DNA from: Candidatus Kaiserbacteria bacterium
GTDB lineage: Bacteria > Patescibacteriota > Minisyncoccia > Phycocordibacterales > UBA2100
NCBI GenBank assembly: GCA_016186765.1
Contig: JACPLD010000002.1
Location: 1-35,271, forward strand
Length of the DNA stretch: 35,271 bases
Direction: 5' to 3'
The notes under the pieces were generated by a model. It was not told the DNA's origin. It saw nothing but the letters and a program-made list of their open reading frames with translations, and searched no databases. This document shows, one piece after another, positions 1,956-32,005 of this stretch. The position numbers were made by a program, and so were the translations under genes. How positions within the stretch are numbered: the stretch's first letter is position 1; each line of letters starts with the position of its first letter.

Positions 1956-3272
1956 CGCAAAAAGTATGAGGAAGATCCACAGCGTGAGCGCCGTGTCGAA
2001 GACAAAGAAATTCTGCACGGCGTAGACGATAGCGATAAGCGAAAAGAGCAAGCCGCGGTATCGCTCCCCTGTGTCAGCCGATTTGAGAAGTCGCCACGAT
2101 TCGTACATGAATGCGCCGATCAATACGAGGTACAAGAGAAGGCCGGGAATTCCATGCTGCACGAGGTAGTCGAGAAACGCGTTGTGCGTTCGATCGAACC
2201 ATTGCTCGACGATTTTCGTCGGATCATAAAACCTGTTGAATGCGACCGCGATATGTTCGGAGCCGAGGCCGAGCAAGAGTTCTTTGGGATTCTGGAGCGC
2301 CTCTGCAACCACGTTTTGCCAAATGAAGAGCCGGCTTTCAACGGTCGTCTCTGAAAGTGATATCGCTGCGAGACGCTGTATCGGCGCGAACGGCGCCGAT
2401 GCGAGCTGCGAGTGAAACGTAATGAACAGCGCAGCAACCACCAAGACGCCGAGAAGGCCAAAGCGTGCATACGTTCGGTACCCGCCTACGCCAAGGCTTC
2501 GGCGGGCAGGTCGCTCACTGCCCCCTGCTTCGCTAAAGCTTCGCAGGGCAGGCCTCCATGCGTAGTAGGCGAGCGCGACAAACCCCGCAGCCACCATCGC
2601 GAGCAACGTACCGCGCGTAGCCGCAGCGAGAATTCCCAAGAGCTGAAGTGCCGCAGCAGCGTATGCCCACTTCTGCCATGTGCCCCTCAAATCCCGCGCG
2701 AGCAAGAGGGTGACAAAAAACGAGAGCGCTATGTAGCTCGCAAAGAACGTGGGATTGCCGAAGGTGCTTGAAACGCGCTCCGCTTCACCCGGAAGAAGTG
2801 GAATATCGATGCCGCTTGCCCATTGGAGCCATTGCAAAACACCAAAGAGCGCCGAGAGCGATGCCGTCCACACGATCACAGCAAAGAGACGTTTGATAAA
2901 TGCCTCATCTGCATAGATGAGCGTGAGATAGAAGAATCCCGCAAGCGCGGTCAAGGTGAGAAGTCCGTCTCCGCGATCGAAGATCGACCAGAAGCTGTGA
3001 TAGAAATCGACTCCTACGAGCGAGCTGACATACGTCCATACGAGAAGCGTCGCAGGAATCCACGTGAGCGGATTCCGGAGCCGCGCGAAATAGAACTGCC
3101 TTCCCGATAGAGCGAGAGCTGCAAATGCAGCAAGCGCGAGAAGAAAGAAGCCTTGAATGAGGAGCGTCTTTGGCGTGAGGTAGGGGTACAGGAGTCCACC
3201 AATGTAGACGAGCGTGAAAACGGCGGGGGCGAGGAGAAGATATGGGAAAGCGCGCTCAAGAGTTTCTCTCAT
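1755..3272 (-). CDS. O-antigen ligase/polymerase (Wzy/WaaL-like) membrane protein; meaningful part ends near 1930
   Basis: 505 aa, many TM segments, TRGTLLAMVAAGFVAL and FDRTHNAFLDYLVQHGIPGLLLYLVLIG typical of the family. The last ~60 aa look like an out-of-frame tail. Confidence 0.75.
   Translation of the reverse strand: MRETLERAFPYLLLAPAVFTLVYIGGLLYPYLTPKTLLIQGFFLLALAAFAALALSGRQFYFARLRNPLTWIPATLLVWTYVSSLVGVDFYHSFWSIFDRGDGLLTLTALAGFFYLTLIYADEAFIKRLFAVIVWTASLSALFGVLQWLQWASGIDIPLLPGEAERVSSTFGNPTFFASYIALSFFVTLLLARDLRGTWQKWAYAAAALQLLGILAAATRGTLLAMVAAGFVALAYYAWRPALRSFSEAGGSERPARRSLGVGGYRTYARFGLLGVLVVAALFITFHSQLASAPFAPIQRLAAISLSETTVESRLFIWQNVVAEALQNPKELLLGLGSEHIAVAFNRFYDPTKIVEQWFDRTHNAFLDYLVQHGIPGLLLYLVLIGAFMYESWRLLKSADTGERYRGLLFSLIAIVYAVQNFFVFDTALTLWIFLILFASMLVWRLRGVPESPHLSRINPTTSREYCARAGVPLSACRCSSLGRRDREGVEARHLCRHGVRLPSL
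2482..2548. repeat. Two adjacent palindromic elements inside the O-antigen-ligase-like CDS
   Basis: cccgcctacgccaaggcttcggcggg (2482-2507) and ccctgcttcgctaaagcttcgcaggg (2523-2548), each an imperfect palindrome. Confidence 0.8.
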
Positions 3273-4029: not shown

Positions 4030-4086
4030 TGAATATCAAGGACGGTCCTTGATACGCGGATTCCTAAGGACCGTCCTTGATATTCA
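4030..4086. repeat. Perfect 21-bp inverted repeat, 15-nt loop
   Basis: TGAATATCAAGGACGGTCCTT (4030-4050) and AAGGACCGTCCTTGATATTCA (4066-4086). Confidence 0.9.
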
Positions 4087-15590: not shown

Positions 15591-16886
15591 ATGGCAACTG
15601 TATTGATAATTGGAGCGGGCGGCGTGGGCAGCGTGACAGCACATAAGTGCGCGATGAATTCTCGTGTCTTCACGAAAATCCACCTCGCCTCACGCACGAT
15701 AGCAAAACCCAATGCGATAAAGAAGGACATCAAAAAGCGCTGGGGAGTCGATATCACGACACATGTCGTGGATGCGGATAAAGCGAAAGAGGTCATCGCG
15801 CTTATCAGGAAGACCAAACCCGAAGCCGTCATCAACGTCGCGCTTCCCTACCAAGACCTTTCCATCATGGATGCCTGCCTCGCAACGGGCGTGCACTACA
15901 TAGATACAGCCAACTACGAGCCAAAAGATGAAGCTCATTTCGAATACAGCTGGCAGTGGGCCTACCGGAACAAATTCAAAAAAAGGGGCGTCATGGCGAT
16001 ACTCGGCGCCGGTTTCGATCCAGGAGTTACGAATGCCTACTGCGCCTACATGCTCAAGAAGTACTTCGACAAAATCCGTTTCGTCGATATTCTCGATGCA
16101 AACGCTGGCAGTCATGAGAAAGCCTTCGCCACGAACTTCAGTCCAGAGATAAACATTCGCGAGGTGACGCAGGAAGTGAAGCATTGGCGCAAAATCAAAA
16201 GAGCTGGCGGATGGATCAAGACACCGCCGGTAATGAACAAAGGCAGCGTTCACTTCAGCTTCAACTATCCGGTGGCGGGACCGCGGGAGAGCTACCTGCT
16301 CTTCCACGAAGAGATGGAATCGCTCGTGAAGAATCTCCCCGGCCTCGAGCGCATGCGCTTTTGGATGACGTTCTCGGAGAACTACCTCACGCACTTGAGA
16401 GTGATGGAGAGTATCGGTATCTCGCGCATCGATCCTGTCGATTTCAAAGGGGAGAAGATCATCCCGATGGAATTCTTGAAAGCGCTTCTGCCGGATCCCG
16501 CTTCTCTTGCAAAAAAATACACTGGGAAAACAGTCATCGGCTGCATCGTGACAGGCGTGAAAAAGGGCCCTTCGACTTCGCTCAGGGTAAAGAAAAAAGA
16601 GAGTACGAAATACATCTACAACGTGAGCGATCACGCAAAGTGCTTCAGGGAAGTCGGCTCACAGGCCATTTCCTACACCGCGGGCGTGCCGCCCGTGATC
16701 GCCGCGATGATGATCCTGCAAGGCAAGTGGAAAGGCGCGGGCGTTTTCAACGTGGAAGAGCTCGATCCCGAGCCGTTCCTGAAGGCGCTTGCTCGCAATG
16801 GGCTGCCGTTCAAGGTCGTGAACCACAGGCCACTTCCTACGTATCTCGGCCTGCCTGCCAGCAGGCAGACGCCTAAGAAAAAATGA
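15591..16886 (+). CDS. Saccharopine dehydrogenase family; probable carboxy(nor)spermidine dehydrogenase
   Basis: N-terminal Rossmann motif VLIIGAGGVGSVTAHKCA; AFATNFSPEINIREVTQEVKHWRK; genomic context with a carboxynorspermidine decarboxylase. Confidence 0.82.
   Translation: MATVLIIGAGGVGSVTAHKCAMNSRVFTKIHLASRTIAKPNAIKKDIKKRWGVDITTHVVDADKAKEVIALIRKTKPEAVINVALPYQDLSIMDACLATGVHYIDTANYEPKDEAHFEYSWQWAYRNKFKKRGVMAILGAGFDPGVTNAYCAYMLKKYFDKIRFVDILDANAGSHEKAFATNFSPEINIREVTQEVKHWRKIKRAGGWIKTPPVMNKGSVHFSFNYPVAGPRESYLLFHEEMESLVKNLPGLERMRFWMTFSENYLTHLRVMESIGISRIDPVDFKGEKIIPMEFLKALLPDPASLAKKYTGKTVIGCIVTGVKKGPSTSLRVKKKESTKYIYNVSDHAKCFREVGSQAISYTAGVPPVIAAMMILQGKWKGAGVFNVEELDPEPFLKALARNGLPFKVVNHRPLPTYLGLPASRQTPKKK
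16568..16588 (+). repeat. Short element CCCTTCGACTTCGCTCAGGGT inside the dehydrogenase CDS
   Basis: First 20 nt identical to the minus-strand copy in ileS (30404-30423); here read as GPSTSLRV. Confidence 0.85.
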
Positions 16887-21081: not shown

Positions 21082-21921
21082 CTAAGCAACAGAAAACACT
21101 CGCTGGGCATTTTCGATGAGCTGCGTGGCAATCTCATCGAAGTCTTGATTACGAATGCGTGCGATCGCGCGAACGACTTCCACGACGTATGCAGGCTCAT
21201 TGCGCTTACCGCGGTGTGGCACAGGAGTTACGTACGGCGCGTCTGTCTCTGAAAGCAACATATCAAGGGGTGTATTTTTGACGACCTCGTCGTAGTCGTG
21301 CGTGAAGGTGAGCACGCCCGTAAACGAAAGGGTGAATCCAAAATCGAGAAATTTCTTGGCCGTTTGCCAGTCTCCTGCGAAAAAATGCGTGTCGCCCTTC
21401 ACCTTCGCGTGCGCCTTCAGTATCTCGAGCGCATCGTCGTAGGCATCTCGTATATGGAGCATGAGAGGCTTTTTTAAGCGATTAGCGATCTCAATGTGCT
21501 CGACGAATACCTTTTTCTGCGTCTCTTTCGTGCTCTCGTCGCATCGATAGTAATCGAGCCCGCATTCTCCTATCGCGATCACACGCGGATTTTTCCCGAG
21601 CTCTTCATACGCGGATCGATCGAAGCGTTCGCCTCTCGACATGAAGCCTTCCTTGCCCTCCGAAGCTTTAGCGAAGGAGGGGCCGAGCTCTTTCTCGTCG
21701 TGATACGACTTCGAGGTGTGTATCGGATGCAGACCGATGGTCGCATAGACGTTCTCGTATTTGTTCGCGAGTTCAACCGCGGAAACAGACGTATCGCGCT
21801 GAGTACCGACGACGTTCATCACGACACCCGCTTCCTTTGCCCGCTCTATCGTCTCCTCTCGATCCTCGTCGTATGCGGCAAAATTCACGTGCGTATGCGC
21901 GTCGAAGTATTTCATGTCCAT
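21082..21921 (-). CDS. tatD: TatD family hydrolase/DNase
   Basis: YFDAHTHVNF, TIGLHPIHT, AIGECGLDYYR, PLMLHIRDAYDDALEIL, LLSETDAPYVTPVPHRGKRNEPAYVVEVV. Confidence 0.92.
   Translation of the reverse strand: MDMKYFDAHTHVNFAAYDEDREETIERAKEAGVVMNVVGTQRDTSVSAVELANKYENVYATIGLHPIHTSKSYHDEKELGPSFAKASEGKEGFMSRGERFDRSAYEELGKNPRVIAIGECGLDYYRCDESTKETQKKVFVEHIEIANRLKKPLMLHIRDAYDDALEILKAHAKVKGDTHFFAGDWQTAKKFLDFGFTLSFTGVLTFTHDYDEVVKNTPLDMLLSETDAPYVTPVPHRGKRNEPAYVVEVVRAIARIRNQDFDEIATQLIENAQRVFSVA
21657..21680 (-). repeat. Palindromic element CCTCCTTCGCTAAAGCTTCGGAGG inside tatD
   Basis: 24-nt imperfect palindrome read in frame as PSFAKASEG. Confidence 0.85.
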
Positions 21922-29179: not shown

Positions 29180-32005
29180 TTATTGCAACGAAATCTTCGT
29201 ATTCGTCTGGGTCTCTATCGCAGCAAGATGCTGCTCGACAATACTGCGATTTTCCTGCAGAACTTCAATAGAAACACTGCCATGTTCCCCTGCTTTCATT
29301 CTTGCTGCCTTTCGAGCGTCCTGGACGAGGCGGATAGTGTCGCGAACGATTCCTTCCTCGCGCAATTCCGGTGTCACGTTTGTGTCGAGTGATAGATTCT
29401 CACCGAACAAAACTCTTTTCACGTTGACTTCGTCTGCAATGATGTCGAGGTACTCTTGCGCGAGTTTCGAGCTTGCAGGGACAGTGAGTGATGCAAGTGG
29501 CTGGCGAACTTTTAGCTTCGCCGCGTCGCGTGCCTCGAGGGCTTCCGAGACGATTTCCCGGGCCTTCGCCATTTCATCGAGAATGACATCCTTCTCGCCA
29601 AATAAACGCGCGAGAAATCCCTTCGCTTTGGCCTCCGGCCATTCAGCAAGATGCACACTCTCTTCATCACCCTCCTCTTTTACCGCTTGGAAAAGATGCT
29701 CGGCGAAGAAGGGCGTCGAAGGCGCCATCACGCGCGAGAGTGTGTGAAGCACGTGGCGAAGCGTCACAAGCCCCTCGACCGCGCTCGCGGCAGGCGCTGC
29801 CTTAATACGATCGCGAGAGCGCCGGAGGTACCACGTTGAGAGATCATCTATAAATAGTGCGATGGGGCGCACGGCCGCATCGAGCTTGTATGTCTCGTAT
29901 CCTTCGGTCGACTCCCGCATCAACTCATCGAGTCGCGCGAGAATCCACCTGTCTAAAACATGCGCACTTTTGTCGCTGCGGGGAGTACCGCCTGCCCCGT
30001 TGGAACCTGAGGGGTTTCCTGCGGGGTCAGCATAGAGCTTGTAGAACGCTAAGACGTTGCCGAGGCGGCTGAGATTTTTCTTGACGATTTCGTCCACGAT
30101 GCGCTCGTCAAAGTTCTTCGAATCCCCTGGCGCATTCACCGTGTACATGAAGAAGCGTAACGCATCGGCACCGTACTTCTCGATCATGGCGTTCGGCTCC
30201 ACGATGTTGCCGAGCGACTTCGACATCTTCTTTCCCTTCGCATCGAGGACGTGGCCCAGCGATATGACATTCTTGAATGCTTTACCGCGATCCATGATGC
30301 CGCCCACCGCGTGCAAGGTGTAGAACCATCCGCGCGTCTGGTCTATTGCCTCGCAAATATAGTCCGCAGGATACATCAACTCTTGATTTTCGAAGGGCTT
30401 GCCCTGAGCGAAGTCGAAGGGATAGTGATCTTGCGCAAAGGGCATTGCGCCGGAGTCAAACCACACATCGAGAACTTCGGGAATGCGGCGCATCGTGCCA
30501 CCGCATGCACATGCAAACGAGAGTTCATCTACGTACGGACGGTGAATGTCATTTGGCACGCGTCCGGCTTTCTGCCTCAATTCCGCAAGTGAACCGACAA
30601 CATCAAAAGCTTTGCACTTCGCGCATTCCCAAATCGGGAGTGGCGTTCCCCAATAGCGACTTCTGCTTATCGCCCAATCCTTTATGTCGCGTAGCCATTC
30701 ACCAAAGCGCCCCTCGCGAATGTGCGCCGGCTCCCAATGGATCGTTTCGTTCTCGCGGATGAGCTCATTCTTTATGCGCGACATTGCGATGTACCACGAA
30801 TCGCGCGCAAAGTAGAGAAGCGGGCTCTTGCACCGCCAGCAAAACGGATAGGTGTGCTCTACTGTTCCCTTCTTAAAAAGCAACCTGCGCTGTTCGAGAT
30901 CTACGATGATCTCCTTGTCGGCATCTTTCACGAACTTCCCTGCGAGAGTGCCGGCCGCAGGGAGGAATCGTCCATCTTCTCCTACGAGGTGCTGTTTCGG
31001 GAGACCGACTTTCGTCCCCAGTTCAAAATCGTCCGCACCATACATGACCGCCGTGTGCACGATGCCCGTGCCATCTTCGGTCGAAACGAAATCTGCCGGG
31101 TACACTTTGTATGCATTCTGCAATTTCTCTTTTTCTGTCGACGGCAGGCTATTTGCAAGAAACGGAAAGAGCGGCTCGTATTCCTTGAGGGCGAGTTTGC
31201 TCCCGCTCGTTTCTTCCAGAACCTCTGCGGTTGGCGCAATTGCAGCGAGTCTATTCTTCGCGATCCAGACAGTGCCTTCGCGTGTCCGAACTTGTACATA
31301 CACGACGTCTGCGCCGACCGCAAGCGCTACGTTGCCGGGAAGTGTCCACGGCGTCGTCGTCCATGCGAGCAAATATTCATCAACGCCTTTGAGTTTGAAC
31401 TTCACGTACACAGAAGGATCCTTCGCTTCGTCGTAGCCAAGCGCGACTTCGTGGGAGGAGAGCGCAGTGCCGCAGCGAGGGCACCACGGGACGACCTTGT
31501 AGTCCTTGTAGAGGAGCTTGCGCGCATGCGCCGTCTTCAAGACATTCCAGACCGACTCTATGTAATTGTTATCGAAAGTGAAATAGGTATCGTCGTGATC
31601 TACCCAAAATGCGATACGGTTGGTGAACTTTTTCCACTCGTCGATATATTGAAGCACGCTCTCCTTGCACTTCTCATTGAACTTGGCGACGCCATACGAT
31701 TCTATATCTTTCTTCGACTTGAATCCGAGCTTCTTCTCGACTTCCAGCTCCACGGGAATTCCGTGCGTGTCCCATCCGGCCTTGCGGCGCACGTGGTAGC
31801 CCTGCATGGTGCGAAAGCGCGGTACTGCATCCTTGAACGCGCGGCTTTCGAGGTGGTGGATGCCCGGAAGGCCGTTTGCGGTCGGTGGCCCCTCGTAGAA
31901 TACGAACTCACCTCTTGGAGACTTCTTGGCAAGCGTCTTCTTGAAAATATCGCGCTCCTGCCAGAATCGCAGTGCCTCCTCTTCGCGCCTCACGACTTCA
32001 CTCAT
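29180..32005 (-). CDS. ileS: Isoleucyl-tRNA synthetase (eukaryotic-like, type 2)
   Basis: FYEGPPTANGLPGIHHLESRAFKDAVPRFRTMQGYHVRRKAGWDTHGIPVE; FWVDHDDTYFTFDNNYIESVWNVLK; VPWCPRCGTALSSHEVALGY; KKMSKSLGNIVEP. Confidence 0.95.
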   Translation of the reverse strand: MSEVVRREEEALRFWQERDIFKKTLAKKSPRGEFVFYEGPPTANGLPGIHHLESRAFKDAVPRFRTMQGYHVRRKAGWDTHGIPVELEVEKKLGFKSKKDIESYGVAKFNEKCKESVLQYIDEWKKFTNRIAFWVDHDDTYFTFDNNYIESVWNVLKTAHARKLLYKDYKVVPWCPRCGTALSSHEVALGYDEAKDPSVYVKFKLKGVDEYLLAWTTTPWTLPGNVALAVGADVVYVQVRTREGTVWIAKNRLAAIAPTAEVLEETSGSKLALKEYEPLFPFLANSLPSTEKEKLQNAYKVYPADFVSTEDGTGIVHTAVMYGADDFELGTKVGLPKQHLVGEDGRFLPAAGTLAGKFVKDADKEIIVDLEQRRLLFKKGTVEHTYPFCWRCKSPLLYFARDSWYIAMSRIKNELIRENETIHWEPAHIREGRFGEWLRDIKDWAISRSRYWGTPLPIWECAKCKAFDVVGSLAELRQKAGRVPNDIHRPYVDELSFACACGGTMRRIPEVLDVWFDSGAMPFAQDHYPFDFAQGKPFENQELMYPADYICEAIDQTRGWFYTLHAVGGIMDRGKAFKNVISLGHVLDAKGKKMSKSLGNIVEPNAMIEKYGADALRFFMYTVNAPGDSKNFDERIVDEIVKKNLSRLGNVLAFYKLYADPAGNPSGSNGAGGTPRSDKSAHVLDRWILARLDELMRESTEGYETYKLDAAVRPIALFIDDLSTWYLRRSRDRIKAAPAASAVEGLVTLRHVLHTLSRVMAPSTPFFAEHLFQAVKEEGDEESVHLAEWPEAKAKGFLARLFGEKDVILDEMAKAREIVSEALEARDAAKLKVRQPLASLTVPASSKLAQEYLDIIADEVNVKRVLFGENLSLDTNVTPELREEGIVRDTIRLVQDARKAARMKAGEHGSVSIEVLQENRSIVEQHLAAIETQTNTKISLQ
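29995..30026. repeat. Palindromic element inside ileS
   Basis: ccccgttggaacctgaggggtttcctgcgggg: ccccgttggaacc pairs with ggtttcctgcgggg with a small bulge; encodes AGNPSGSNGA. Confidence 0.75.
30392..30423 (-). repeat. Short element with flanking 8-bp direct repeat inside ileS
   Basis: Minus strand CCCTTCGACTTCGCTCAGGGCAAGCCCTTCGA; CCCTTCGA repeated 24 bp apart; encodes PFDFAQGKPF. Confidence 0.85.

Follow-up and report, generated by a model that had tools for sequence, protein, structure and literature searches.

The isoleucyl-tRNA synthetase gene (ileS) of a Candidatus Kaiserbacteria genome contains a 24-bp in-frame insert, which is one copy of a dispersed imperfect palindrome composed of CCCTTCGACTTCGCTCAGGG and a 4-nt tail of the YAAR type. 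We consider it likely, with a probability of about 0.8, that independent insertions of this palindromic element have hit one and the same ileS codon in several lineages of Patescibacteria.

A 24-bp palindrome within ileS

The insert was found in the window, which is the whole 35,271-nt stretch of DNA that was analysed. Three features define it:

29180..32005, minus strand: ileS, isoleucyl-tRNA synthetase (IleRS), 941 aa, complete (translation; Pfam tRNA-synt_1, E=3.7e-117; PDB IleRS matches)
30398..30421, minus strand: 24-bp element in ileS, CCCTTCGACTTCGCTCAGGG plus tail CAAG, encoding PFDFAQGK (sequence; exact dispersed 20-mer; absent from G001, G002 and G027)
30390..30397, minus strand: second CCCTTCGA, the host HYPFE codons (HYPF(E) in element-free relatives and PDB 8c8w)

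On the minus strand the gene reads CAC TAT CCC TTC GAC TTC GCT CAG GGC AAG CCC TTC GAA AAT, translated as HYPFDFAQGKPFENQE, and positions 30421-30390 consist of CCCTTCGACTTCGCTCAGGGCAAG followed by CCCTTCGA. The two exact copies of CCCTTCGA, at 30421-30414 and 30397-30390, are spaced 24 bp apart. An initial annotation had reported this 8-bp direct repeat at 30392-30423; the repeat is indeed exact, and the coordinates were about 2 bases off. It had also proposed that a small element had inserted in frame into an essential gene. A precise insertion of a repeated element is borne out by the absence of the insert from most relatives and by the dispersal of its 20-mer in the genome. The plain HYPFEN that it expected without the insert is matched by Priestia IleRS2 (PDB 8c8w), which reads HYPFENS, and alignment shows that the eight added residues are missing from the roughly 70% identical IleRS of three relatives in the genus (G001, G002 and G027).

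Taken alone, an 8-bp repeat at 24-bp spacing is not unusual for a window of this size: three such pairs occur, against a mean of 1.5 over spacings 9-59. The significance of the element comes from the recurring 20-mer. The window holds two exact copies of CCCTTCGACTTCGCTCAGGG, with none in shuffled sequences, and the 755-kb genome (G000) holds 10 copies with at most two mismatches, with none of a reversed control pattern.

The 24-bp copy in ileS forms a weak hairpin (RNA, -4.0 kcal/mol) and lies in a loop that varies among relatives in both length and sequence. Exposure of this loop was judged from its variable length, because an AlphaFold2 model of IleRS (8 sequences; mean pLDDT 57, below 50 across the insert loop) was too poor for use. 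The element probably adds nothing to IleRS except a longer variable loop. Other variation was seen in the same protein. A His_Phos_1 (PF00300) domain is inserted shortly before the loop in many Patescibacteria IleRS (L078, L082, L070 and relatives whose match is split around query residue 480), and Pfam finds no such domain in the window IleRS. The N-terminus of the G007 IleRS (L077:3131-6013), SSATPSRKASDEQSKASDGQGK, resembles remnants of additional palindromic inserts.

Dispersal of the 24-bp family

The 20-mer was present with at most one mismatch in 16 of 52 genomes of the genus, and exactly in 32 of 380 genomes sampled across the phylum; the control matched nothing in either survey. The ends of the copies are constant, CCC...GGG, and the four bases after them are mostly TAAA, CAAG or CAGG, so that 20 and 4 nt make up the 24 bp. 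A second copy in the window lies in another gene:

16568..16591, plus strand: 24-bp copy within a saccharopine dehydrogenase-type gene, in frame and translated as PSTSLRVK, tail TAAA (Pfam; 9-aa gap opposite in PDB 4ina)

Most copies in the genus (27/36) fall within an open frame of at least 150 aa, a share slightly below the 85% of random positions; for the phylum sample the figure is 16/29. The frames of the element yield the peptides PFDFAQGK and PSTSLRxx, or LALSEVEG and CPERSRR from the reverse strand. The host genes are presumably uvrC, htpX, guaA, ftsQ, purL, ilvE, metG, atpD, ruvC, fmt, infB, tgt, obgE, recX and tatD, names that were recognised from the translated sequence save where a Pfam or PDB comparison was run. 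In AtpD of G008, the alignment with a solved homologue (PDB 2qe7) has a gap opposite the element. Related elements also occupy three other IleRS positions in the genus (G001, G017 and G011).

Two other genomes of the phylum, G168 and G178 (L146-L161), carry 14 copies of the 20-mer each, many of them embedded in longer repeats of the forms ACAGTTCA-element-CAGACAGTTCA and AAGGAAA-element-AATATT. Outside IleRS, the core is also seen, unchanged or with one base altered, in Flavobacteriaceae, Bacteroidales, Phycisphaerae/Planctomycetota, Acidobacteriaceae and Cysteiniphilum (L069, L071, L072, L076, L079, L081 and L084); the core sequence is therefore spread across phyla. A scan of viral contigs gave 36 matches.

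Empty sites and flanks

In the three relatives without the insert, HYPF leads straight into a variable linker. When the 24 bp are taken out of five carriers (G000, G007, L073, L078 and L082), six residues are left to link HYPF to YPAD, as in G001. Removal of the 24 bp gives PFENQELMYPADY / PFSGKEILYPADY, against PFAGKKLLYPADY at the empty site. Since both the empty-site relatives and Priestia IleRS2 have HYPF(E), the right-hand CCCTTCGA corresponds to host HYPFE codons. Other ileS carriers keep their own host codons at this flank (CCTTTTGA, CCGTTTGA, CCCTTTGA and TCGTTTGC; CCT TTT GA, CCG TTT GA etc.), and their left copy of CCCTTCGA is nearly always the exact element sequence.

The initial annotation had interpreted the repeat as a target duplication. 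This does not hold, as the left CCCTTCGA is the element's own end in every dispersed copy and the right one is pre-existing host sequence. Of 79 copies outside ileS, just one has at least 6 of 8 matches at the offset of the second copy; on these flanks we reject a target-site duplication. The comparison of flanks indicates that the 8-bp repeat is a similarity between the element end and its target.

The host CCNTTYGA in ileS matches the left end of the element in register (mean 5.9 of 8), and C is enriched at the first host base in copies outside ileS (16/22 with TAAA, 9/16 with CAAG). Together with the lack of transposase genes adjoining the copies, this matching would suit copying without a transposase, by template switching or short-patch gene conversion, where a dispersed copy and a host site have a few bases in common. 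However, flank similarity outside ileS is almost confined to that first C. The two families, whose centres differ, both keep constant element ends and tails, and this constancy suggests that an enzyme recognises them. We regard such an exchange as unlikely but credible.

Recurrence at one ileS codon

We scanned 84,980 genomes for HYPF/HFPF-DFAQG, leaving third bases largely free. The insert turned up in nine IleRS genes, among them L077, which is the gene of G007; a further seven matches were non-IleRS stretches in other phyla. With the window gene, the ten insert-bearing IleRS belong to Kaiser-, Taylor-, Taga-, Zambryski-, Berkel-, Davies- and Levybacteria and to one further bacterium. Nearly identical insert DNA thus occurs at the same ileS codon (HY^PF) in ten genomes, which represent at least seven candidate lineages. 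The carriers were found by searching exactly that site, so that their counts give no degree of hotspot relative to other sites.

A phylogenetic tree of IleRS that included the ten carriers, with the insert removed before tree building, required eight state changes, at least six of them forced by strongly supported branches. A single clade of carriers was rejected (p-AU 1e-59), and within the genus G000 and G007 were separated by lineages without the insert. Both CAAG and TAAA tails were present at the ileS site. The scattered carriers, the rejected clade and the two tail types point to recurrent insertion. In one carrier, L080, the loop equals that of its close relative L019 in length, and this case could be a replacement instead of a net insertion. 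The earlier description of the window insert as a snapshot of an insertion was right about the insertion, and "snapshot" is too weak for a site hit repeatedly across lineages.

One ancient insertion, inherited vertically, lost in most lineages and held constant in DNA by selection, is very unlikely. Strong DNA conservation could reflect a selected functional site, and in metG and infB species do share copies with the same variant bases. For ileS, the tree and the two tail types reject a single ancient event, which would also require many losses. Moreover, divergence at synonymous sites around the element far exceeds that within it: between genomes, element codons 1-6 are 87% identical, versus 46% for third bases of same-residue upstream codons.

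It is more improbable again that parallel selection added the octapeptide to IleRS as an adaptation, for instance for interaction with a tRNA or an inhibitor. The same peptide at the same codon in independent lineages would fit such selection, but unrelated genes contain this peptide and also other reading frames of the element, the IleRS loop is variable among relatives, and conservation is at the DNA level, as expected for a mobile repeat. A conventional transposon or MITE that duplicated 8 bp of its target site can be set aside, for although the two exact 8-bp copies enclose 16 bp of new sequence, CCCTTCGA is in all copies whatever their target, 78 of the 79 copies outside ileS have no second one, and the host motif already exists in element-free genomes.

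A sister family of 30 bp

A second palindrome, CCCNNCTNCGCTAAAGCTNCGNNGGG, which comes to 30 bp with tails as in the 24-bp family, was present in 30 of 52 genomes of the genus, where a control pattern gave no matches. G000 has three copies, two of which lie in genes of the window:

21652..21681, minus strand: 30-bp palindrome CCCTCCTTCGCTAAAGCTTCGGAGGGCAAG within a DNase gene of the tatD type, translated as PSFAKASEGK (break in the PDB TatD alignment over this stretch; Pfam)
2523..2552, plus strand: 30-bp palindrome CCCTGCTTCGCTAAAGCTTCGCAGGGCAGG, within an O-antigen-ligase-type (Wzy_C) gene in antisense orientation (Pfam)

Among 36 distinct sequences of this family, the fourth stem pair alternates between T-A and G-C and is paired in 94%. 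The fifth pair can be C-G, G-C, A-T or T-A and is paired in only 53%.

The two families share an insertion site in metG, where TGG^CCN is occupied by the 24-bp element in G005, G011 and G015 and by the 30-bp element in G013. In G001, one 30-bp element is nested inside another. Both the metG site and the nested copy agree with the inferred element boundaries. Several such inserts were also found in the infB loop that precedes KRITFIDTPGH. In metG and infB, the site and variant bases are common to some species, which suggests that part of these copies were inherited and are not new insertions.

A possible route of dispersal

We propose that a non-autonomous, very short REP-like palindrome, with CCC...GGG ends and a 4-nt tail, 24 or 30 bp in all and thus divisible by three, disperses through the genome. 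An enzyme acting in trans would move it, most likely a RAYT-related HUH/Y1 single-strand transposase. The similarity between element and target that underlies the apparent 8-bp duplication may help to choose the site. Insertions in tolerant loops would survive, since the element keeps the frame and brings no stop in most of its frames.

HUH/Y1 enzymes leave a hairpin, a constant short tag and no duplication. Mobilisation by Y1 transposases is inferred because this combination, typical of such enzymes, is also seen here. At least three matches to Y1_Tnp (PF01797) were found in all 16 carriers of the 24-bp element versus 15 of 36 non-carriers (Fisher 2.9e-5, with kinship ignored and the cut of three copies set after the counts were seen). 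For the 30-bp element and Y1, the proportions were 23/30 carriers versus 8/22 non-carriers (p 0.004, kinship likewise ignored). Two carriers of the 30-bp element, G012 and G064, had no detected Y1 gene, and both genomes are incomplete. Three Y1 proteins compared with NF047646 scored 30.6-43.3 bits, below the cut-off of 80, and resemble REP-associated transposases. The Y1 enzymes are candidates by genome association only, and we would put their role as movers of the element at somewhat less than even odds.

That the element is part of a Y1 transposon was considered and rejected, as no copies adjoin Y1 genes: none was seen beside the 32 genes examined, except for one weak variant near one gene. 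Several Y1 genes in G000 are flanked by their own, different hairpins. A lone perfect 21-bp intergenic inverted repeat at 4030-4086 of the window is styled like these hairpins. The window also contains two 212-nt direct repeats (188-399 and 530-741), which are 82% identical and 342 bases apart.

We tentatively suggest, as a reading that we hold to be possible rather than probable, that these elements form an undescribed class of tagged coding palindromes (CCC...GGG-YARR, 24/30 bp, frame-preserving). They would re-enter the same codons of essential genes because conserved motifs, HYPFE in IleRS and WP in MetRS, are encoded by DNA that resembles the element end, so that protein conservation itself may create the hotspot.

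Relation to known elements

The closest known kinds of element are the coding palindromes of the REP and RPE type and the small dispersed repeats of cyanobacteria. REPs and REPINs associated with RAYTs fall into GTAG- and CGTC-tagged super-families; REPs inside genes are documented, and in two Xanthomonas species recB carries different REPs at nearly the same position (PMC3733652). Like REPs, the Patescibacteria elements are repeated short palindromes of 20-40 bp with a constant unpaired end tag, some of them are intragenic, and Y1 transposases are found in the same genomes. Unlike those of REPs, their tag is YYTR (TTTA, CTTG or CCTG, on the other strand) and not GTAG or CGTC. They have few copies per genome, which are mostly intragenic in the genus, whereas REPs are mostly extragenic. 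RAYT genes are flanked by cognate repeats; Y1 genes are present in all 24-bp carriers of the genus, and apart from the one weak variant no element was seen beside those examined.

The RPEs of Rickettsia, including RPE-4 and RPE-6, are in-frame palindromes within protein genes, among them genes for DNA processing and tRNA modification, and the inserts that they encode are often 20-30 aa or more (PMC3733652). The likeness lies in dispersed palindromes that are read in several frames in unrelated protein genes (here uvrC, guaA, metG, atpD, infB, purL, ruvC, fmt, tgt and others). Compared by description only, the Patescibacteria inserts differ in adding 8 or 10 aa, in the host phylum and in a tag that is not CGTC.

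The cyanobacterial small dispersed repeats, a subject of Elhai et al. in Genome Res in 2008, are reportedly very small (about 20-odd bp) and mobile. Tiny size and mobility are what they would share with our elements, a likeness of description and not of sequence, and the host phylum differs. Literature searches with the element DNA strings and the encoded peptides returned no relevant paper, although a description elsewhere is possible. The papers found on the candidate phyla radiation and palindromic repeats apparently do not concern these elements.

The best-documented coding palindromes are those of Rickettsia and of scattered REP-rich genomes. Here such palindromes occur in the reduced genomes of Patescibacteria, where they sit in core translation, replication and energy genes. 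A short shared peptide such as PFDFAQGK or PSTSLRAG in Patescibacteria alignments or phylogenies should not be taken as homology, common ancestry or a functional motif. The parallel ileS insertions amount to a natural experiment, complete with replicates, on the landing sites of very small elements and the tolerance of proteins, and these tiny genomes offer a place for studying how such elements move through essential genes.
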